Shown one piece after another: positions 10,449-56,821 of a stretch of DNA of 57,430 bases. Each line of letters begins with the position of its first letter. The first letter of the stretch is position 1. The DNA is taken from the IMG/VR virus record IMGVR_UViG_3300047557_002126, positions 1-57,430 of that record, one strand, 5' to 3'. The stretch comes from a virus. Below the pieces are notes generated by a model, which did no database searches, was not told the origin of the DNA, and saw only the letters and a list, made by a program, of their open reading frames with translations. Position numbers and translations under genes: made by a program.

Positions 10449-11448
10449 GTGGTTTACCTGGTCGAATTCCTAAATGCACAAACCCTTTTGGTGCGCCATA
10501 GCCTAAAGAGTATGGCCAATTTTTATCGCACCAATCTTGTAAAACATATGTATTTACTCCTTCAATGTAAAAATCAATTGCTCCTTTATTGACTGCATCA
10601 TATGTATGCTCACTGTTTTTAGCACCACCAACTTGTGCGTTAATTGGCTCTGGCCGTGATGCACTTGTAATAGTGATCGGTTTACCACCAAAATGCGCAC
10701 GTGCTTTTTCAACAAAACGACATAATTCCAATGCCGTATCACATTGATACTGTTGAGTAAAACGCCGTGCTTCTTGATTTAACGTTAGTTCTCCATAGGT
10801 AATATTGGGTGTTACCTTGTAGCCAAATGGGCTTTTAGGATTAAACTTTTGTGCTTGTATTGGATCCGTAAGTTTGCTTGAGACGTTACCACTGGTCCCA
10901 AGTTTATTATCCATAATTTGAATTAATTTTGTGGCATAACCTGGATCGGTCGCGTAACCTTCTTTTACCAATAAATTGGCACATTCATTCCTGCTGGCAG
11001 CTCTGTTAACGCCTTGGTATTTACCAAAGTCTTTATACCAGCGATCAACAAGGTAACAAACGCAGGTGTAAAGGTCAGGAAAGTCAATAAACCCTGCTTT
11101 AATTGTTATCCATTTTCCGTTAATAAATTCCTGTGTATTAACCTGTGTTCCGTTTCCTTTAAGACCAAAGTAGTTATTTAAACCAGAGGTGTGTTGACCC
11201 CAGCCAGATTCTAGTGCCCATTGTGCCGCCACAACTTCAGGCCATTTAGCACCAGCGTCTTTACCAGCTGCTAAAACACCTTCCCATGTATTGGTATATT
11301 TATTAACAAGTTGAGGCTTCGTGCGATAACGCATCGCAAAAGACTCCAGGGTTTCAGTAGTTAACTGATCCTGGAGCCAATTCCAGGCTTCAATTTGATG
11401 CTGTTCTTCTGCAAAATACTTTGCAGCGTCAATTAATTTTATTGTCAT
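10429..11448 (-). CDS. endolysin: GH73-like glucosaminidase plus M15 peptidase
   Basis: A 339-residue two-domain cell-wall hydrolase. Residues about 35-185 resemble FlgJ/GH73 glucosaminidases, with AAQWALESGWGQ (Glu80 as likely catalytic acid) and NNYFGLKG. Residues about 215-339 match M15-type D,D/L,D-carboxypeptidases: SASRPEPINAQVGG, SEHTYDAVNKGAIDFYI (His281, Asp292) and GFVHLGIRPGKPRVRW (His325). Together they would cut glycan and peptide parts of peptidoglycan. AGGG five nucleotides before the ATG can serve as a ribosome site. No signal peptide is evident, so a holin or equivalent is needed. Confidence 0.85.
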   Translation of the reverse strand: MTIKLIDAAKYFAEEQHQIEAWNWLQDQLTTETLESFAMRYRTKPQLVNKYTNTWEGVLAAGKDAGAKWPEVVAAQWALESGWGQHTSGLNNYFGLKGNGTQVNTQEFINGKWITIKAGFIDFPDLYTCVCYLVDRWYKDFGKYQGVNRAASRNECANLLVKEGYATDPGYATKLIQIMDNKLGTSGNVSSKLTDPIQAQKFNPKSPFGYKVTPNITYGELTLNQEARRFTQQYQCDTALELCRFVEKARAHFGGKPITITSASRPEPINAQVGGAKNSEHTYDAVNKGAIDFYIEGVNTYVLQDWCDKNWPYSLGYGAPKGFVHLGIRPGKPRVRWDY

Positions 11449-12560: not shown

Positions 12561-15371
12561 TCAAGACAATCTATATGTAACAAAAGTATTAGCTGCGGTA
12601 CGTCTAGTTGCAAAACGGCCAGATGTACCTGTAGCCACAGAGCCAGAGCCAACAATAGTATGTGCAGTATTTGCAAGTACACGAACTAGGCTGGGACCTG
12701 TATTAATAACACTCCATTCAAATGTCATGTTGTTATAGATATTATTAACACCAGTATTAAAACCAGCTTCCGTGTTGGTTCCTGTTGGCAGCGTCATGTC
12801 CGTAGCCGCTGCAGAAGTACTTGTAATAATCCCTGCTTTTAAGTTGGCAGCGGTAAGAGTTGCTGTTGCATTAACAGCTGCCGGAGCCACCTGATTGTAT
12901 GCAATAATTCCATCGCTGGTTATGCGAAGCTGTTCCGTCGGGTTGCTCGCACCTGAACTTGTCGTGCTCAGGACAATTCGGCCCGGCATTGAGTCGGTGC
13001 CGGGGGTGTTGTCTACAAAAGATTCTATTGAAGCAGTGGCATTATTTAAGTCAGTACCGTCGTGCCCGGCAAAGATAATAAAACCAGTTCTGTCGCCGCT
13101 TGCAACCACGCTCGCGGATGCTCTTGCCCTGCCCAAGAACAAACCAGCAGAGTTTCCTGCACCTGTACTGTCTTGGCGATACAGGGATAGGCTTGACTGT
13201 GCATAGGTTGTGCCAGATAGCTGCAGGTTACTCTCAACCCCATAGATATTATTGCTTCCAGTCGTCCCCATCAGCAACCTGCCGGAGCTGTCGATGCGGG
13301 CGCGTTCAGTTGCAGCATTTAATGTCGTACCTGTTGTACCAGTAGATGCGATGGAGAATACGATTGGGCCACCTGCACCTGTGCCTGTTCCCCTACCACC
13401 TTGAACGGTAAGAGTAGCACCTGTGATGTTGGTGCCAGAACCACCAGTTGCCGCGATTAATGCATTTGCTGGAGAAGCATTTGTTTCACCATTACCAAAG
13501 AAGATTGTTCCTGCATTATTAATCCTCATCCGCTCCGTCGGCGGGCTGCTCGCTCCATCGGCGGTGGTGCTGAAGACCAAACGTCCCGGCATGTCGTTAG
13601 CGCCGGGGGTGCCGTCTACTTGGCACTCAATAGTTCCCGCTGTAATTGGTGCCGAACCATCAAAGCCAGACCAACGAATCTTGCCAAGACTGTTTCCACT
13701 TAAAACAATACTACCTCCATGAGTCTTGAGAAACTCAAGGTTGGGAATCCTTCCCCCAGAGGCTGAATTATGGTGAAGCAGTAGGTGGGTATTCTCTGAA
13801 GACAAGGCCGAATAGATTTCAACGGACCCAGCGCCAATGGCTCCAGTAGATGCACTACTCGTCCCCACCAGCAGCCTGCCGGAACTGTCGATGCGGGCTA
13901 CTTCGCTGGCGCCGATGTTGGTGATAAAGGGCGCTGTACTAGCATTAGCCGATATTGTCGTGCTACCCAGGTAGTCAACTTTGAACCTTTCGGTTAGCGC
14001 TCCAACCCCGTTATCGAGCTTGATTGTAAAGTTGCTTGCTGAGCCTGCCGTATTGATCGACGTGGCATCAAAAACCACATGATTGCGTGCCGCTCCACCG
14101 CCAGAAGAGTCGGCATTGAAAAAGCTAATTCTGCCCCACGGATCTGTAGTAGACCAGTCGCTACCTACTGACGTTGTTCCAATCCTCAGCTCAGTCGGCG
14201 TTGGAGAGGCGCTGCCGGTTGCAGAAGAAAGATGAAGCAGGGTGCTGGGGCTCGCGGTGCCAATACCCACATTGCCTGCATGGGTAATCCGCACAACTTC
14301 AGCCAACGTGTCATTGGAAGACGCGCTGGAATGCGTAAAAAAAGCAAGACCTAATCGATCGTCATCTACATCTGTTTGTACTGATGCGATAGCAGCACCA
14401 GGGCGATCACCATTGATCTTGCTAAGAGCGATTGCTGTTGAATAAGCGCCATTTGCTGGAGTACCACCAGATTGTTGGATGTAAAGGCCAGCAGTCGACG
14501 CACCTAAGTTAGCGTCAAACTGAGCTGTTGATAAAACTTGAAGTAATGCTCGCGGACTTGTGGTGCCCAGACCTAAACGGCCTGAGGAATCAATCCTCAT
14601 CCGCTCATCAATTCCGCCACTCGTATTGTTGGTGAGAAAACGAAGATCGCTGGCGCCACCATTGCTATTGGCATAAATATCAATTGAGGCCCTTACCGAT
14701 GCACCTGCCGGAGTCGAGGCATCACCAGAGTAAAACTCCAGTGCAGCGGTTGATTGATTTGCTACACCGTTGTAATTATTGCTAATGCGTAGTGTCGTAA
14801 CTTCCGAGACGATATTACTTGCGACTTCTAGCCTTGTTGCAGGGCTACTGGTCCCCAGACCTAAACGGCCACTTGCATCAACAAACAATCGTCCATTGCC
14901 ACTTGTTGTGATTGCTAGTTGATTTGCACCAGGGCTATATAAACCTGTATCCGAATCTCCACTTACAGATAACGAAGGAGTTGCTGCAAGACCCGACGCA
15001 ATAACTGTTGTACCAGTAACTGTAATGTTTGGGAAAACAAATGTACCGGTAGTTGCAATAGAAGCGGGAATTACAGTGCCGTCACTGGGCGTACCAACAG
15101 CTTGTACATCGCCTAGAACGGTAGCAAAAAATGTAGTGCCAGAGACAGGCGGCGTTGTAAAGGTAAGGCCAGATCCCGACACTAAATAGTCAACCCCTGG
15201 TTGCTGGATAACACCACCAAGGGAAAGTAATACGTTTTGGGCAAGGCCAGGGATAACACCTTGGCCACCAGCAGTCATGGTAAAGCCGGATGCTGTGCCG
15301 TTAAATCCCCCGGAAATTTGATCCAGGAGAATGTAACGACCAACAACCGGCTGCTGCCCAACGTAAGCCAT
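12561..15371 (-). CDS. tail fibre protein with repeated shaft modules
   Basis: About 936 residues from the ATG at 15371 (MAYVGQQPVVGRYILLD); an in-frame upstream start at 15386 is less likely because a hairpin occupies that leader. The N-terminal 110 residues look like a virion-attachment head common to cyanophage fibres. The shaft repeats modules such as IDSSGRLGLGTSSP and LRITSDG, typical of beta-helical fibres with GIGT(T/S)SP motifs. No intramolecular chaperone domain is seen; it ends TAANTFVTYRLS. It shares near-identical DNA blocks with the fibre gene at 15900-18161. Likely role: host recognition. Confidence 0.82.
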   Translation of the reverse strand: MAYVGQQPVVGRYILLDQISGGFNGTASGFTMTAGGQGVIPGLAQNVLLSLGGVIQQPGVDYLVSGSGLTFTTPPVSGTTFFATVLGDVQAVGTPSDGTVIPASIATTGTFVFPNITVTGTTVIASGLAATPSLSVSGDSDTGLYSPGANQLAITTSGNGRLFVDASGRLGLGTSSPATRLEVASNIVSEVTTLRISNNYNGVANQSTAALEFYSGDASTPAGASVRASIDIYANSNGGASDLRFLTNNTSGGIDERMRIDSSGRLGLGTTSPRALLQVLSTAQFDANLGASTAGLYIQQSGGTPANGAYSTAIALSKINGDRPGAAIASVQTDVDDDRLGLAFFTHSSASSNDTLAEVVRITHAGNVGIGTASPSTLLHLSSATGSASPTPTELRIGTTSVGSDWSTTDPWGRISFFNADSSGGGAARNHVVFDATSINTAGSASNFTIKLDNGVGALTERFKVDYLGSTTISANASTAPFITNIGASEVARIDSSGRLLVGTSSASTGAIGAGSVEIYSALSSENTHLLLHHNSASGGRIPNLEFLKTHGGSIVLSGNSLGKIRWSGFDGSAPITAGTIECQVDGTPGANDMPGRLVFSTTADGASSPPTERMRINNAGTIFFGNGETNASPANALIAATGGSGTNITGATLTVQGGRGTGTGAGGPIVFSIASTGTTGTTLNAATERARIDSSGRLLMGTTGSNNIYGVESNLQLSGTTYAQSSLSLYRQDSTGAGNSAGLFLGRARASASVVASGDRTGFIIFAGHDGTDLNNATASIESFVDNTPGTDSMPGRIVLSTTSSGASNPTEQLRITSDGIIAYNQVAPAAVNATATLTAANLKAGIITSTSAAATDMTLPTGTNTEAGFNTGVNNIYNNMTFEWSVINTGPSLVRVLANTAHTIVGSGSVATGTSGRFATRRTAANTFVTYRLS

Positions 15372-18578: not shown

Positions 18579-20048
18579 TTAACCAAGGGCAATAGCAAAC
18601 ACAATAGCAGTGTTATCTGCATATGGTTGTGTAGCAACCGTTTGACCACTAAACGTTAAACCAGATGCAAAAATTCCGCTTACACCGCTAATTACACCAC
18701 CGCTTAAATTCTGAAAAACGCCTGATGTACCTTGAATTACATTGCCTGTAACCGTGGCACCTGAAACAGAAGTCGTAAATACACCTGCAATTCCAGTTAA
18801 ATTTGTAAATTGCCCAGTGTCTCCTGTAACTAAAAGACCTGAGACACGCGTAGTAAACGTGCCCGAAACACCTGTAACATTGCCAAATAAACCAGTGGCA
18901 CCAGTAACAGTCGCACCTGAAACACTGGTAGTGAAGGTACCGGAAATTCCAGTGATTGTGCTGAATTGACCAGTATTACCTGTAACGGTTGCACCAGACA
19001 CGCGGTTGGTAAATGTACCGGAAATCCCCGTTAACGTGGTGAATAAACCGGTGGCTCCGGTAATTGTGGTGCCAGAAAGATTTGTGTAAACGCCGGAAAC
19101 ACCTGTAATATTAGAAAACTGACCAGTGTTCCCAGTGATCAGGGCACCCGAGAAAAATTGTGTAAAGACGCCGGAAACACCGCTGACATTACCAAAAGCA
19201 CCGGTATTACCAGTAACAGTTGCGCCGGAAACACGTGTGGTAAACGTTCCGGAAACTCCTGTGACAACTGTAAAGCGACCTGCGTCACCAGTAATAACAG
19301 CACCACTAAGCTGACTGGTAAATGTACCGGAAACACCGGTGATGTTTGCAACACGAACAGTGTCACCTGTAATGGTTGCACCAGAAAGTGTTCCACTGAC
19401 ATTGACACCAGAACTAAACTGAGCTAATCCAGAAACAAACAGTCCGCTGACGACGGTTAAATTACCGCTAACAACCAGAGTTGGCGTTGAAAGGGAATTA
19501 AAAATACCACTGGTTGCTTGAACGGTATTACCTGTAATTGTCTGGCCGCTTAAATTTAAAAATACCCCAGAAGTTCCTGAGATTGTATTGCCGGTAATTG
19601 TTGCGCCACTTAAACGTGTGGAAAAATTACCGCTGATCGCATTAATCGTGTCCCCTGTAACAGACGTAGCCGTTACATTGCCAGCATTAACGTTTGTGCC
19701 TTGAATATTAGTACCTGTAATTGTGGTACCACTAATGGTTCCACTAACAGTTGCGTTATTTTGAACGATTAATCCACTAACCGTGGCGCTGTTGCTAACG
19801 GTTAAACCAGATGTTGATGTCGAACCTGAAACCGTTAGGCCACTCTCAATAATAACGGAACCACTAATGGTTCCCCCTGTGCGGGGAAGGTAGTAAACAT
19901 TTAAATACGCCTTAGTTCCAGATATTGTTAGTTTCTTATTTTTAATCGCCGGGTCTGGCTCGGCAACATGGACAACCGTAAACAGGTCATTATCCGCAAG
20001 ATCAAGTCCTGCGAGTTCCTGTAATTCGCTAATTCTACGGTTGGCCAC
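18579..20048 (-). CDS. repetitive fibre protein (about 26-aa repeats)
   Basis: A 489-residue protein that starts at GTG (20048). The first 60 residues (RRISELQELAGLDLADNDLF...) look like a virion-attachment domain. The rest is a run of about fourteen imperfect 26-residue repeats of the form TGVSGTFTTRVSGATVTGNT, predicted to form a triple-stranded or beta-solenoid shaft. Composition is dominated by Gly, Thr, Ser and Val. No enzymatic motif is present. It is probably a fibre shaft or spike. Confidence 0.78.
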   Translation of the reverse strand: MANRRISELQELAGLDLADNDLFTVVHVAEPDPAIKNKKLTISGTKAYLNVYYLPRTGGTISGSVIIESGLTVSGSTSTSGLTVSNSATVSGLIVQNNATVSGTISGTTITGTNIQGTNVNAGNVTATSVTGDTINAISGNFSTRLSGATITGNTISGTSGVFLNLSGQTITGNTVQATSGIFNSLSTPTLVVSGNLTVVSGLFVSGLAQFSSGVNVSGTLSGATITGDTVRVANITGVSGTFTSQLSGAVITGDAGRFTVVTGVSGTFTTRVSGATVTGNTGAFGNVSGVSGVFTQFFSGALITGNTGQFSNITGVSGVYTNLSGTTITGATGLFTTLTGISGTFTNRVSGATVTGNTGQFSTITGISGTFTTSVSGATVTGATGLFGNVTGVSGTFTTRVSGLLVTGDTGQFTNLTGIAGVFTTSVSGATVTGNVIQGTSGVFQNLSGGVISGVSGIFASGLTFSGQTVATQPYADNTAIVFAIALG

Positions 20049-20493: not shown

Positions 20494-20949
20494 ATGGCTT
20501 ACGGAACAAGAAAAGGTCTTGAAGACATTGCGTACGAACTAAAAGGAATCAGAAATATTCTGGGTTCTATTTGGAGCGCACGTTACCAAAACAACGAAAC
20601 AGACCAGCTGCATCCCGATCTGTACGCAGATGAGTACATTTCAACAGAAGAGTGCGCTCGTAGGCTTGGGGTATCGGACCAGACTTTGCGTAATTGGATT
20701 CTGACCGGCAAGAAAAATCCTAAAAAAGGTTGGATCCAAAACGTACATTACGTCAACATCTCTCCGGACGTTACCAAGAAAGACGTAATTCGCATCCCCT
20801 GGAACAGGCTGATCGCTTCCTTTGTGCGAAACAACGAGGTAAGCCTGATGTCTTTCCGCAGTCCAAACACCTATAAAAGCACTAGGCAAGAAGACAAGGG
20901 TCGTGAAATTCCAAACCCCTCAGTTCCAGACGTTGATGAGGACGAATGA
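20494..20949 (+). CDS. helix-turn-helix DNA-binding protein (excisionase/MerR-like)
   Basis: A 151-residue protein with an HTH_17-like segment: YISTEECARRLGVSDQTLRNWI (written in part: residues about 50-71), followed by a wing-like KKGWIQNVHYVNI. An acidic tail ends PDVDEDE. Likely a transcription regulator or DNA-architecture factor. It begins a five-gene plus operon and overlaps the next gene by 4 nt. Confidence 0.68.
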   Translation: MAYGTRKGLEDIAYELKGIRNILGSIWSARYQNNETDQLHPDLYADEYISTEECARRLGVSDQTLRNWILTGKKNPKKGWIQNVHYVNISPDVTKKDVIRIPWNRLIASFVRNNEVSLMSFRSPNTYKSTRQEDKGREIPNPSVPDVDEDE

Positions 20950-43131: not shown

Positions 43132-44661
43132 TTAGTAATCAAACTGAAGTTGACTTTTTTTAGAAAGACCAGTAACCAACCAAACCAGTGCGTCAACACA
43201 GTCATCGTGACTACTGACACCAAAGTTTGTAAGCTCTTCAAACATATTTGTGAAATTTCGGTAGCGGTTGAAGATAATTTTGCGATCCTCAAACATGCCC
43301 ATAATTCCACGGAAACGAGCCAACTTATCTGCACGGAATCCTTTGACAGGGTGCCAAATTAAGTTATAAAGACCTTCACCGTTTAAGCACACACGCTTGA
43401 AGTCGGCCTCCAGGGATGCCTGGTACTGTACCGCCTCACTCCATACGTCACACGTTGAATATGTTGGGAAGTAATTACCGTTCTCATCTTTTCCAAGTAC
43501 GCACCAATCATTGAGAAGTTCCTTGAGTGCATCTAGTTTTTCAAGGTTACCCATAACGCGCATCCGGCGATAATCAATGATATGAATATGATCACCAATG
43601 CGTCCGCCAAGAACAAATACGGTGTAATCGTTTTTCTCCTTAGTACCAGCAGAGAGGTCAACCCCAACTCCCAAGGCATCAAATTCAGTTGCAATTTCAG
43701 CTTTAACCAACAACTCTGGTGCAAGCGACAGTTCGTTTTGGCGAACAATTTGATTCATGTACTGAAAAGAAAAAGCAATTGGAGCTTGCCGTTTCTTTTC
43801 CTTTAGATAATCCAACGACCACATGTCGGGCCAATAAGATTCTTCTTCTCCAGTTTCATCGTTATTTAAAATTGCAGATAGAACAATCTGTGACCAATTG
43901 TTTTGTGGATTAAAGGTTGTGGCATGCACATCATCATGACGGAACCGTGTACCAAGACAAATGGCCCTGCCACCCTCAAACATGGTGGGTGCAATAACTG
44001 CATTCCAATTATCCTGCATGATTTTACGGATATCTGGATTGGCAATATCAGAAGCTGATTTGATAGGGTCATCGATGATGACCAGGTGAGAACGCTTTGA
44101 AGTCACCGAGCCTTTAAGGCCTGCAGCGCAAAGTGTAAATTGTTCTTCACCAGTGGTGTCGATGCCTGCAAATTTATGGTCAATGGACCAGTACTCATTG
44201 CTGGTTACGTTCTTTAAAAGTTTTACACAAGGGAATACTTCTTGGTATTTTTTGCTTTCAATAATACGTTTAATTGTTGCCGACTTGGAACGAGCAATAT
44301 CAACCGTATAAGAAAGATAAAGAATTTGCAGTGTGCGTTTTGCGAGAGTATGAATGCCAATGGCCCAGGCCGTAAAAAGACCGAGCACTGTTGACTTAGC
44401 AGAACCCCGTGGACCTAACAAATCAATATTGGGGCCAGCAATTTTAATAAGGCAAGAACTGTCCTCGTTTGATACCAGGTGTCGATGCCAGTTTTTGTGG
44501 TGTTGCGCCGGAGGCTTATCTGCTACGTACTCACAAAAGAAACCAAAATCCTCTTGTGCCTTCTTCAGTAAATCTTCGTTATTGCTTTTGCGGACTTTGT
44601 GATTTTTTGCAGCAGCCTGCGCATTCCGCCGATAAGCAAGATGAAGATGAGAAGGAGACAT
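43132..44661 (-). CDS. terL: terminase large subunit
   Basis: A 509-residue packaging motor. The ATPase has LLGPRGSAKST (Walker A, 81-91), SHLVIIDDP (Walker B, about 191-199) and CLGTRFRHDD (coupling motif, 235-244). The RNase H-like nuclease starts with GVDLSAGTKEKND (Asp335) and includes STCDVWSEAVQYQ and DDCVDALVW near the C-terminus. The motor cuts and translocates DNA into the prohead. An 8-bp hairpin lies 2 nt before its ATG. It is followed by small genes and preceded by a possible small subunit. Confidence 0.92.
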   Translation of the reverse strand: MSPSHLHLAYRRNAQAAAKNHKVRKSNNEDLLKKAQEDFGFFCEYVADKPPAQHHKNWHRHLVSNEDSSCLIKIAGPNIDLLGPRGSAKSTVLGLFTAWAIGIHTLAKRTLQILYLSYTVDIARSKSATIKRIIESKKYQEVFPCVKLLKNVTSNEYWSIDHKFAGIDTTGEEQFTLCAAGLKGSVTSKRSHLVIIDDPIKSASDIANPDIRKIMQDNWNAVIAPTMFEGGRAICLGTRFRHDDVHATTFNPQNNWSQIVLSAILNNDETGEEESYWPDMWSLDYLKEKKRQAPIAFSFQYMNQIVRQNELSLAPELLVKAEIATEFDALGVGVDLSAGTKEKNDYTVFVLGGRIGDHIHIIDYRRMRVMGNLEKLDALKELLNDWCVLGKDENGNYFPTYSTCDVWSEAVQYQASLEADFKRVCLNGEGLYNLIWHPVKGFRADKLARFRGIMGMFEDRKIIFNRYRNFTNMFEELTNFGVSSHDDCVDALVWLVTGLSKKSQLQFDY

Positions 44662-55275: not shown

Positions 55276-55447
55276 CATTATATCCTAGGCTAGCTCGCGG
55301 GAGATGGGAGAAAGAAGACAGTTGTAATTGAGAATTATATGTTGAGAGATTGAAGGTATGTAATTGAAGAAGATGAAGATTGTGTAACAAGTGATCGGGG
55401 GCTGCGCATCCGTAACACGCAGATGTTCCACTACTCAGCTCAACACA

Positions 55448-55627
55448 ATGGTCATTAGCTGCACTTATGTAACTGATGAAGCTGTCTACGAGTTCCAGGT
55501 GAACAAGACAGAAGATTGCGCTCGTGTAACTAAGTGGGTCCGTAAGGGCGCACGTGGTTATGACAAGAGCACAAGCATGACTGTTTCAATGGCACGCAAG
55601 TTGGCCAAGCAACTTGTTAATAGCTGA
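55448..55627 (+). CDS. hypothetical 59-aa protein, first small early-type gene
   Basis: Begins MVISCTYVTDEAVYEFQVNK at 55448; a frame opening at 55391 is less likely, as its first part overlaps the non-coding leader. Polar, with a basic C-terminus (ARKLAKQLVNS). The leader CAACACA has no Shine-Dalgarno. Family unknown. Confidence 0.6.
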   Translation: MVISCTYVTDEAVYEFQVNKTEDCARVTKWVRKGARGYDKSTSMTVSMARKLAKQLVNS

Positions 55628-55642
55628 TCCGTATAAGCGGGA

Positions 55643-55691
55643 CCCAGGGTGCAAACCCCTGGGCAGTAATTGCCTCCAGCGGAGATAGGCA
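55643..55691 (+). ncRNA. tandem hairpin element A (T-loop-like)
   Basis: Hairpin 1 has a perfect 7-bp stem, CCCAGGG/CCCTGGG, with the 7-nt loop TGCAAAC. After a CAGTAAT linker comes an imperfect hairpin, TGCCT...AGGCA. It lies between two small genes and 21 nt before the ATG at 55712. Confidence 0.5.
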
Positions 55692-55711
55692 CCGCACCAC
55701 AGCACAACACC

Positions 55712-55876
55712 ATGGCTGTACGTAAGACCATTGCTCAGCAACTCTCCAAAGCTGCTAAGGCTCTGGAGAATGATAAGAGCAAGGAGAAGCTTGGCGTTGC
55801 AATGTTTACTGCAAGGGTTGCATTGGCGAATGCCATCATGCCCAAGCAATTCAACATGCCGACCAGGAAGAACTGA
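55712..55876 (+). CDS. hypothetical 54-aa basic protein
   Basis: Starts MAVRKTIAQQLSKAAKALEN; a basic, amphipathic helix with a C-terminal PKQFNMPTRKN. The leader CAACACC is CA-rich with no ribosome site. It may bind nucleic acid, judged from charge only. Confidence 0.6.
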   Translation: MAVRKTIAQQLSKAAKALENDKSKEKLGVAMFTARVALANAIMPKQFNMPTRKN

Positions 55877-55886
55877 TCCATTTACT

Positions 55887-55953
55887 GCTGAGTACCAAGC
55901 GTGATGCTGGGGATCGAATCCCCACTCAGCTATTGCCAGCCGCCAAGGCTGGC
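55887..55953 (+). ncRNA. tandem hairpin element B (T-arm-like)
   Basis: TGGGG-ATCGAAT-CCCCA resembles a tRNA T-arm (7-nt loop with C56, G57 and A58 equivalents). GCTGAGT (55887-55893) and ACTCAGC (55924-55930) pair around it like an acceptor stem, sharing one end base. TATT follows, then GCCAGCC/GGCTGGC with a 5-nt loop. It ends 14 nt before the ATG at 55968. Confidence 0.55.
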
Positions 55954-55967
55954 CTACATCACAACAC

Positions 55968-56150
55968 ATGCGTACTTTCTTCATCTCCTTCAGCACTGCG
56001 ATGACTGCTGGCATGATGCTTATTGCTCCAACCATTGCTCATCACTTGCATGAGGCAACTCTCAAGCAATGTGTAATGCATGATTGGCCAGCGCACCAGG
56101 CTGAAGCACACCTCAAGTTCTGCGCTGATTACGTCAAGCAGAACGGCTAA
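55968..56150 (+). CDS. 60-aa membrane or secreted protein
   Basis: Begins MRTFFISFSTAMTAGMMLIA, a hydrophobic N-terminal segment or signal anchor, then HHLHEATLKQCVMHDWPAHQ and AHLKFCADYVKQNG. The C-x3-DWP-x3-A-H-x3-C pattern is found in small cyanophage proteins of unknown role. No ribosome site; CA-rich leader. Confidence 0.6.
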   Translation: MRTFFISFSTAMTAGMMLIAPTIAHHLHEATLKQCVMHDWPAHQAEAHLKFCADYVKQNG

Positions 56151-56165
56151 TTCGTCAAAGCGAGT

Positions 56166-56213
56166 GGCAGGGTGCAAACCCCTGCCTAGCTATTGCCACA
56201 CACTGAGTGTGGC
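56166..56213 (+). ncRNA. tandem hairpin element C (T-loop-like)
   Basis: GGCAGGG-TGCAAAC-CCCTGCC is a perfect 7-bp stem with the same 7-nt loop as element A. The linker TAGCTATT follows, then GCCACAC/GTGTGGC with a 5-nt loop. It ends 11 nt before the ATG at 56225. Confidence 0.55.
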
Positions 56214-56224
56214 TACCTATCAAA

Positions 56225-56305
56225 ATGCTTACTATCTTTGCATTGATCGTGGCTGCACCCTTCGTACTCGACTATATCGAGAAGAAGGGTAAGACACGTA
56301 AGTGA
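56225..56305 (+). CDS. 26-aa membrane peptide
   Basis: MLTIFALIVAAPFVLDYIEK followed by KGKTRK: a hydrophobic helix and basic tail. A tiny gene placed directly after element C. Its status rests on the regular spacing of the neighbouring genes and the preceding tandem hairpins. Confidence 0.5.
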   Translation: MLTIFALIVAAPFVLDYIEKKGKTRK

Positions 56306-56341
56306 TCTTGTCTAATCATCTGTTCAACTACAACTCAATCC

Positions 56342-56569
56342 ATGTTTATCTATCAACCTTTCATCAACTCAGGCGACCGTGTCGCTTGGTATGGCGGTGA
56401 GTCCACACAACTGCACTACGAAGTACAGGTGGATGGACACGATGGCAATCCTGATTGGATTGAACGTGGTGTCCGTACACTAGGCGGTGGCATACCAGTA
56501 GGTATGTCCGAGCTACATGCAGAGCTTGTGGACTACTACAACTACTGCCAAACCACTGACGGTATCTGA
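56342..56569 (+). CDS. hypothetical 75-aa protein
   Basis: MFIYQPFINSGDRVAWYGGE and IERGVRTLGGGIPVGMSELH: a mixed alpha/beta protein with no family recognised. Leader ACTCAATCC, with no Shine-Dalgarno and no tandem hairpin. It is 2 nt from the next gene. Confidence 0.6.
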   Translation: MFIYQPFINSGDRVAWYGGESTQLHYEVQVDGHDGNPDWIERGVRTLGGGIPVGMSELHAELVDYYNYCQTTDGI

Positions 56570-56571
56570 TC

Positions 56572-56772
56572 ATGAAGAACGAACTATTCCAAGTCAATCT
56601 CGCTGTCATGATGGGCATTGGTATTGGTGCATTGCTTTGTGTCTTCGGACAGAAGGCAATTAATGCATACAGTATCCGTACATGCCCATCGAAACCAGAC
56701 CATGTGCTGGTTCGTATGACCAACAGTTTTGTGGGCGACGCAGTTTATTGTGTCGAACGCAAGTATGTTTGA
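56572..56772 (+). CDS. 66-aa membrane protein
   Basis: Starts MKNELFQVNLAVMMGIGIGA and continues LLCVFGQKAINAY: one transmembrane helix at about residues 9-27 and a C-terminal domain with two cysteines. Function unknown. Confidence 0.6.
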   Translation: MKNELFQVNLAVMMGIGIGALLCVFGQKAINAYSIRTCPSKPDHVLVRMTNSFVGDAVYCVERKYV

Positions 56773-56782
56773 TTCTTGCACG

Positions 56783-56821
56783 AAGGGCCTACGGGCCTTT
56801 CCTGCAGGATTCACTCCTGCA
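56783..56821 (+). ncRNA. tandem hairpin element D
   Basis: AAGGGCC and GGCCTTT (7 bp, one G-U) are closed by a UACG tetraloop; two nucleotides later TGCAGGA and TCCTGCA pair around the 5-nt loop TTCAC. It resembles A-C in having two 7-bp hairpins in tandem, without the T-loop. It ends 18 nt before the ATG at 56840. The first hairpin could act as a weak terminator. Confidence 0.45.

Follow-up and report, generated by a model that had tools for sequence, protein, structure and literature searches.

Background

In tRNAs the acceptor and T stems (7 + 5 bp) add up to 12 bp, and in the elbow two D-loop nucleotides, G18 and G19, form pairs with T-loop positions 55 and 56. tRNA mimicry as a form of gene punctuation has been known before from organelles and eukaryotic viruses. 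In animal mitochondria (tRNA punctuation) and plant mitochondria (t-elements), tRNAs or tRNA-like folds lie between coding regions, abut stop codons and mark processing sites. tRNA-like folds also exist within long eukaryotic RNAs, as in the MALAT1 and MENbeta 3' elements (mascRNA and menRNA), which recruit RNase P and RNase Z. In the TMERs of MHV68, a viral tRNA-like sequence precedes stem-loops, and tRNase Z carries out the processing (PMC7773990). In bacteria, cleavage of polycistronic mRNAs by RNase P is on record (Alifano 1994; Li and Altman 2003, both as cited in PMC4919922).

Here we have analysed a window of DNA, namely the whole 57,430-base virus sequence of its source record, in which an earlier note had described a tandem family of four elements, each a pair of hairpins. 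Three of the four, namely copies A, B and C, are members of a family with one common fold and more than 140 distinct copies in S-EIVl-like and T7-like cyanophages.

Elements in the window

Copies A–C are located in a plus-strand block of small genes at the right end of the window, and a long minus-strand gene lies upstream of this block (Table 1). The hairpins described earlier (the first hairpins of A, B and C, and the second hairpins of B, C and D) are present, and so is the 7-bp helix said to close the arm of copy B. The unit, however, is not a pair of hairpins but a three-way junction, the 5' strand of which begins upstream of those hairpins and includes the upstream stop codon. Nor is the arrangement tandem, since A, B and C are scattered, each between two cistrons. 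The second element of copy A is an H-type pseudoknot, not a 7-bp hairpin. Downstream of the 3' hairpin of copy C, the start ATG of the next small gene is found near 56225.

A covariance model whose 80 seed sequences included the window copies themselves matched copy C with 77.8 bits (E 1.6e-21), copy A with 74.0 bits (E 2.2e-20) and copy B with 30.5 bits (E 5.2e-7). These are the top three matches in the window, all on the plus strand, and the next best has an E of 0.12. A structural descriptor detected A, C and one poor match with an AGTAAAA loop on the plus strand of the window, and nothing on its minus strand or in eight dinucleotide shuffles. Judged by sequence and predicted fold, A, B and C are members of a real, widespread RNA family and not chance resemblances. 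The subclass to which the diverged copy B belongs recurs in relatives (L126, L128, L156, L157 and L173). Membership of the fourth element, D, is ruled out by the lack of any covariance-model match even with the filters off, and the proposed family of four is reduced in the window to three. Element D is likewise placed between small genes.

Table 1. Elements A to D and neighbouring stop codons, by position in the window
Feature	Position	Strand	Basis
Copy A, tRNA-like domain	55622..55667	+	Covariance model, fold, pair counts in relatives
Copy A, P1 GCTG/CAGT	55623-55626 / 55664-55667	+	
Copy A, P2 TCCG/CGGG, loop TATAAG	55628-55641	+	
Copy A, P3 CCCAGGG/CCCTGGG, T-loop TGCAAAC	55643-55663	+	
Stop TGA of upstream gene (ORF 55391-55627), within P1 5' strand of copy A	55625..55627	+	ORF list
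Copy A, discriminator-like A and UU spacer, from tRNA-like domain to 3' domain	55669..55671	+	
Copy A, 3' domain, H-type pseudoknot	55671..55696	+	Covarying alternatives in relatives
Copy A, pseudoknot stem TGCCT/AGGCA	55671-55675 / 55687-55691	+	
Copy A, pseudoknot stem GCGG/CCGC	55679-55682 / 55692-55695	+	
Stop TGA of upstream gene, before copy B	55874-55876	+	Sequence
Copy B, diverged tRNA-like domain, 7 + 4 bp	55887..55930	+	Model score; subclass in relatives
Copy B, P1 GCTGAGT/ACTCAGC	ends of 55887-55930	+	
Second in-frame TGA, inside P1 of copy B	55889-55891	+	Sequence
Copy B, small arm AGC-GTGAT-GCT	55898-55908	+	
Copy B, P3 GGGG/CCCC, T-loop ATCGAAT	55909-55923	+	
Copy B, spacer ATT and 3' hairpin GCCAGCC-GCCAA-GGCTGGC (hairpin 55935-55953)	55932..55953	+	
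Copy C, tRNA-like domain, 5 + 7 = 12 bp	56145..56191	+	Covariance model
Copy C, P1 GGCTA/TAGCT; P2 TTCG/CGAG, loop TCAAAG	within 56145..56191	+	
Stop TAA of upstream gene (ORF 55968-56150), inside P1 of copy C	56148..56150	+	ORF list
Copy C, P3 GGCAGGG/CCCTGCC, T-loop TGCAAAC	56166-56186	+	
Copy C, spacer ATT and 3' hairpin GCCACAC-ACTGA-GTGTGGC (hairpin 56195-56213)	56192..56213	+	
Element D, TACG tetraloop hairpin and unrelated 7-bp hairpin (TTCAC loop; 56803-56821)	56783..56821	+	

Distribution of the family

Synechococcus phage S-EIVl is the sole annotated DNA relative of the window in the phage collection, and it carries the motif, with different stems, in two intergenic regions of the corresponding block. 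The DNA pattern AGCGNGNNNNNNNGTGCAAACC, derived from A, C and S-EIVl, yielded 120 viral-contig stretches, with the full structure at about 75 loci; the remainder were chance, unpaired matches. Further copies were added by a second DNA pattern with a tRNA-type T-loop. Matches to the raw pattern were often chance or true tRNAs, which were removed by demanding paired stems. The covariance model gave 191 matches in 81 loci, many of them counted twice through overlapping loci, and one to seven copies per record in 38 records, grouped within 1–2 kb. A protein-based scan of viral contigs found nothing. The elements recur in relatives with preserved stems and outside translated genes, as the earlier note had expected of a genuine family, save for their overlap with the upstream stop codon.

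Among the named phages, a single copy is present in S-CBP2, where it separates genes 0002 and 0003. The T-loop pattern combined with structural parsing gave convincing copies in S-TIP37, S-RIP1, S-RIP2, P-SSP7, Syn5, 9515-10a, S-SBP1 and S-CBP3; this combined descriptor is the specific one, the raw T-loop pattern not being clearly above a reversed control in every genome. Copies are found upstream of the major capsid gene in P-SSP7 (20632-20678), Syn5 (19842-19882), S-TIP37 (20516-20560) and S-RIP1 (44208-44273). The upstream ORF stops at nucleotide 4 of the element in S-TIP37, S-RIP1 and S-SBP1, the +3 offset that is seen in the family.

The window has no match at the gathering threshold to Rfam 15, which includes tRNA (RF00005) and tmRNA, and five copy-rich loci gave only a chance match to astro_FSE (20 bits, against a threshold of 70); no known riboswitch or other Rfam family matches. 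Among 84,980 cellular genomes there is a single match to the strict DNA pattern, located at a contig edge in a cyanobacterial MAG, and a cellular origin was set aside on this ground. The family is absent from Rfam and we found no description of it in the open-licence literature, a search that does not amount to proof of novelty. The family, its placement in phage mRNAs and its overlap with stop codons look undescribed; tRNA-like structures and tRNA punctuation are in themselves already known kinds. To our knowledge, tRNA-mimic gene punctuation has not been described in phage mRNAs. The family adds an RNA outside Rfam to well-studied marine phages (P-SSP7 and Syn5) and to many uncultured ones; P-SSP7, Syn5 and S-TIP37 are available as laboratory isolates.

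Fold and covariation

In the common fold three helices meet in a three-way junction: P1, P2 (which resembles a D-arm) and P3 (which resembles a T-arm). In the alignment of 80 sequences, P1 has 5 bp, P3 has 7 bp with the loop TGCAAAC, and P2 occurs as ATCCG/CGGGT, ATTCG/CGAGT or ATACG/CGTGT with the loop TNNAAG; the search pattern had fixed parts of the P2 3' strand and the T-loop, which explains in part why these two are invariant here. Paired cells amount to 96.1%, whereas shuffles give 79.1% and slid partners no more than 47.5%. Two-sided changes are seen at 12 of the 17 pairs in this alignment. RNAalifold, given no structure, recovered the same three helices, the covariation term being -3.86 kcal/mol. 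Base-pair covariation in the predicted fold of the family is strong, and the pair counts in relatives bear out the compensatory stem changes that had been noticed within the window.

Weaker members of the family have the T-loops TTCGATT, TTCAATT, ATCGAAT and TTTAAGT, P2 can be reduced to an 8-nt single strand (NNGGTGNA), and a few copies carry an extra arm. There are 21 T-loop sequences of 7 nt, nearly all of the form N-K-Y-R-A-N-N, in which R57 and A58 and no other positions were demanded by the parser and GTGCAAACC was also fixed by the seed search. Copies with the extra arm between the D-like and T-like parts (L128:1234-1299, minus strand; L179:1462-1527) are near-cloverleaf, and may hint at descent of the family from tRNA genes.

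Kissing or pseudoknot pairing of GCAA in the T-loop with TTGC in the linker was ruled out, since S-EIVl has TTAC with an unchanged loop. Likewise, anti-Shine-Dalgarno pairing of TGATCC was ruled out by the variants TAATCC and TGATTC, which preserve pairing in P2. The conserved parts are accounted for by predicted RNA pairing.

Twelve-base-pair helix and elbow

P3 runs straight into P1 on the 3' strand, giving one continuous helix. In a parse with no preference for total length, P1 and P3 add up to 12 bp in 80 of the 126 distinct copies and to 11–13 bp in 122 of them. Base pair 12 is paired in 83% and base pair 13 in 22%, with the same drop for 6-bp and 7-bp P3, and splits of 5 + 7, 6 + 6 and 7 + 5 are all present among the copies.

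The final dinucleotide of the P2 loop varies together with T-loop positions 55–56: AG goes with GC in 100 copies, CG with GC in five and GG with TC in eight, as counted without correction for shared ancestry. The GG/TC copies carry seven different P2 stems, the short D-loops NNGGTGNA, which contain GG, are found with TTC loops only, and two copies (L142 and L129) have the dinucleotides GA/TT. In L156 and L173 there is a joint change to TTAAGG and TTCAAAC in the usual background (TTCG..CGAG, AAAC). Exceptions to the simple dinucleotide rule are L163:11581 and the ATCGAAT subclass, which includes copy B of the window.

This covariation supports the predicted D-loop/T-loop tertiary pairs 18-55 and 19-56. 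The T-arm likeness first seen in the window is thus confirmed in relatives, which carry literal tRNA T-loops (GGTTCGATTCC), a covarying D-loop-like partner and a 12-bp coaxial helix. We infer that each element mimics a tRNA top half, in most cases without an anticodon arm. They are not tRNA genes of the cloverleaf type with an anticodon arm sought by ARAGORN, which found no tRNA in the window or in the copy-bearing loci L126, L127, L128 and L130. Nor do they resemble plant-virus-type tRNA-like structures at the 3' end, where CCA is lacking and A73 is followed by UU in nearly all copies.

Position in messages

The copies are intercistronic, lying between co-directional genes in the sense orientation. 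An ORF ends near the element in 139 of the 145 distinct copies, and in 95 of these 139 (about two-thirds) the stop codon is at nucleotides 3–6 of the helix, starting 2–3 nt in. Downstream, a start codon is found in 143 of the 145, at a median distance of 38 nt from N73. The stop codon covaries with its partner, as seen in copy A (TGA-CAG) versus copy C (TAA-TAG), and the pair at columns 10/51 is GC in 63 cases and AU in 13. In some copies (L008, copy B and others) the stop codon lies outside the fold, which is kept, and the copies in L148, L150 and L164 come after a leader, with no upstream gene. Read-through of the stop codon was ruled out, as the frame after the stop is not open and the downstream distance varies among copies.

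A conserved core in the linker to the second hairpin, another claim of the earlier note, does exist, but it consists of A-U-U directly after P1, followed by the 3' domain. N73 is A in 111 of the 145 copies, and T occupies N74 in 135 and N75 in 141. The 3' domain is a hairpin or, in about one-third of the copies as typed by eye (automatic typing over-calls), an H-type pseudoknot, the second stems of which covary (GCGG/CCGC, GCAGG/CCTGC, TGTGG/CCACA and CCGG/CCGG).

Downstream of pseudoknot-type copies there is often a small hairpin containing both a GGAG Shine-Dalgarno sequence and a GTG or ATG start (ACAGGA-GAA-TCCTGT-G). This hairpin was seen at L001:8070-8095 and in L004, L005 and L009, with stems that differ and stay paired, and a translational control of its own is possible. 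At 55397-55422 of the window, before the first small gene, is a conserved leader, GGGGCTGCGCATCCGTAACACGCAG, with the hairpin CTGCG/CGCAG. It has 52 matches, some of them overlapping, in the fetched loci, sometimes several per phage, and in L164 a similar leader is directly 5' of the tRNA-like element; possibly it is a second structured element or a transcript start region. S-EIVl also has inverted intergenic elements in the same kind of place (L001:10317-10360, 11010-11070 and 12964-13011), of the CCTGGGC..GTCCCAGGA and TCCTGAGTATGAC..CTCAC types. These have no match to the model and may be other punctuation elements.

Possible functions

Tentatively, we favour the view that the elements are docking or processing sites for tRNA enzymes, with an RNase Z-type cut on the 3' side that would separate or cap cistrons. 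Host enzymes that read the elbow and the 12-bp acceptor/T length would dock on the element, and the RNA would be cut, as by RNase Z, between A73 and U74. The upstream mRNA would then retain its stop codon, with a compact tRNA-like cap as its 3' end; the 5' end of the downstream mRNA would lie two nucleotides before a hairpin or pseudoknot that shields it. The docked enzymes would in this way process the message, making or protecting the ends of single cistrons.

Since the tRNA elbow is bound by RNase Z, through a flexible arm, and by RNase P, which clamps it and measures along the acceptor/T stack (PMC4810234), the features under selection in the family appear to be those that tRNA enzymes read. 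A C straight after the discriminator inhibits RNase Z (PMC7479834), and C74 is found in only two of the 145 copies. Most RNase Z enzymes prefer substrates with a mature 5' end; in vitro, that of B. subtilis is slowed by 5' extensions of at least 33 nt and, unlike archaeal enzymes, does not process pre-tRNAs without arms (PMC7479834). Against an RNase Z-type cut, the 5' extension here is a whole gene, and the 3' domain is so near A73 that it could hinder access. Against processing, translation up to the stop codon would open P1 and P2.

It is unlikely that the elements serve, uncut, as structural barriers, in which exonucleases (PNPase or RNase II in the 3'->5' direction, or RNase J in the 5'->3' direction) are halted by the tRNA-like fold together with the hairpin or pseudoknot 3' of it, so that each cistron has its own stability, as may be compared with REP elements and exonuclease-resistant viral RNAs. 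Very stable, compact structures do lie at these gene boundaries, where small early genes end and ahead of the capsid gene, and the type of 3' domain varies as if structure alone mattered. Such a barrier, however, has no need for the 12-bp rule, the covarying D/T elbow or the conserved A-U-U spacer.

We consider it quite unlikely that the element acts in translation, the tRNA mimic helping to keep a ribosome that has terminated in P1 on the message, to recycle it, or to let it reinitiate at the start codon some 38 nt downstream, in the manner of an IRES or other tRNA mimics. The covarying stop codon within the fold and the nearly constant start codon downstream would fit such a role, as would the lack of a Shine-Dalgarno-like motif at 69 of the 82 starts behind hairpin-type copies. 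However, cyanobacterial genes commonly have no Shine-Dalgarno motif, a terminating ribosome would unfold P1 and P2, and the fold is kept where the stop codon lies outside it. Moreover, the few copies with no upstream gene imply that termination is unnecessary.

A cut by RNase P at the 5' end of the 12-bp helix, after which the downstream mRNA would begin with the tRNA-like structure, is improbable. RNase P cleaves minimal acceptor/T stem-loops, bacterial mRNAs and phage-induced RNAs (PMC4919922), and the stack that it measures is the same (PMC4810234). In most copies, however, the stop codon would lie some 3 nt beyond the cut, so that a non-stop mRNA would result; in addition, many copies have A-U, G-U or no pair at base pair 12, and there is no conservation at position -1.

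T4-type phages have intergenic exchange cassettes, known as PeSL. It is very improbable that the elements are primarily a shuffling cassette of this sort, a repeated intergenic sequence for recombinational exchange of small accessory genes with RNA structure secondary, because recombination needs similar DNA, yet here the stems change with pairing kept and great divergence is tolerated at a constant fold, although several copies per phage do lie in one 1–2 kb small-gene block and near-identical elements separate different genes in different contigs. Such shuffling could go along with any RNA role.

Returning to processing by tRNA-maturation enzymes, a wider claim can be made that we hold to be somewhat unlikely: cyanophages of several lineages (S-EIVl-like and several T7-like genera) might flag cistron boundaries, including that before the capsid gene, with stop-containing tRNA mimics that host enzymes cut, the cut being gated by the state of translation at the stop codon. 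If true, this would be a general "tRNA punctuation" strategy in DNA phages, and it could account for the way in which expression is set in T7-like cyanophages at gene boundaries, for instance the one ahead of the capsid gene.

Comparison with known systems

Plant viral 3' tRNA-like structures are a further case of viral tRNA mimicry with an elbow, but they are 3'-terminal and usually aminoacylated or CCA-ended, whereas the phage elements are internal and have no CCA. The tRNA-like domain of tmRNA shares the acceptor/T helix, the D/T elbow, the lack of an anticodon arm and the attached pseudoknots; in contrast, the phage elements are embedded in mRNA and have no CCA end, tag reading frame or visible identity elements.

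Phage T7, a relative of the T7-like cyanophages that carry the element, punctuates its early mRNAs with RNase III sites, which are irregular hairpins without a tRNA elbow or the 12-bp rule. In bacterial mRNAs cleaved by RNase P, a tRNA enzyme carries out intercistronic processing, as proposed for the phage elements; we know of no conserved tRNA-like family at those sites. The MALAT1 and MENbeta elements likewise are tRNA-like folds within a longer RNA, but they mark the 3' ends of eukaryotic lncRNAs with one site per RNA, whereas the phage elements are repeated between genes.

Mitochondrial punctuation is similar in its tRNA-like folds between coding regions, next to stop codons. Unlike it, the phage elements contain no functional tRNA and usually no anticodon arm, their stop codon lies inside the acceptor-like helix, the host is a bacterium, and cleavage is only proposed. 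With the MHV68 TMERs they share a viral tRNA-like domain directly followed by hairpins. TMERs are separate RNA polymerase III transcripts that yield miRNAs, whereas the phage unit lies in a polycistronic mRNA beside a stop codon.
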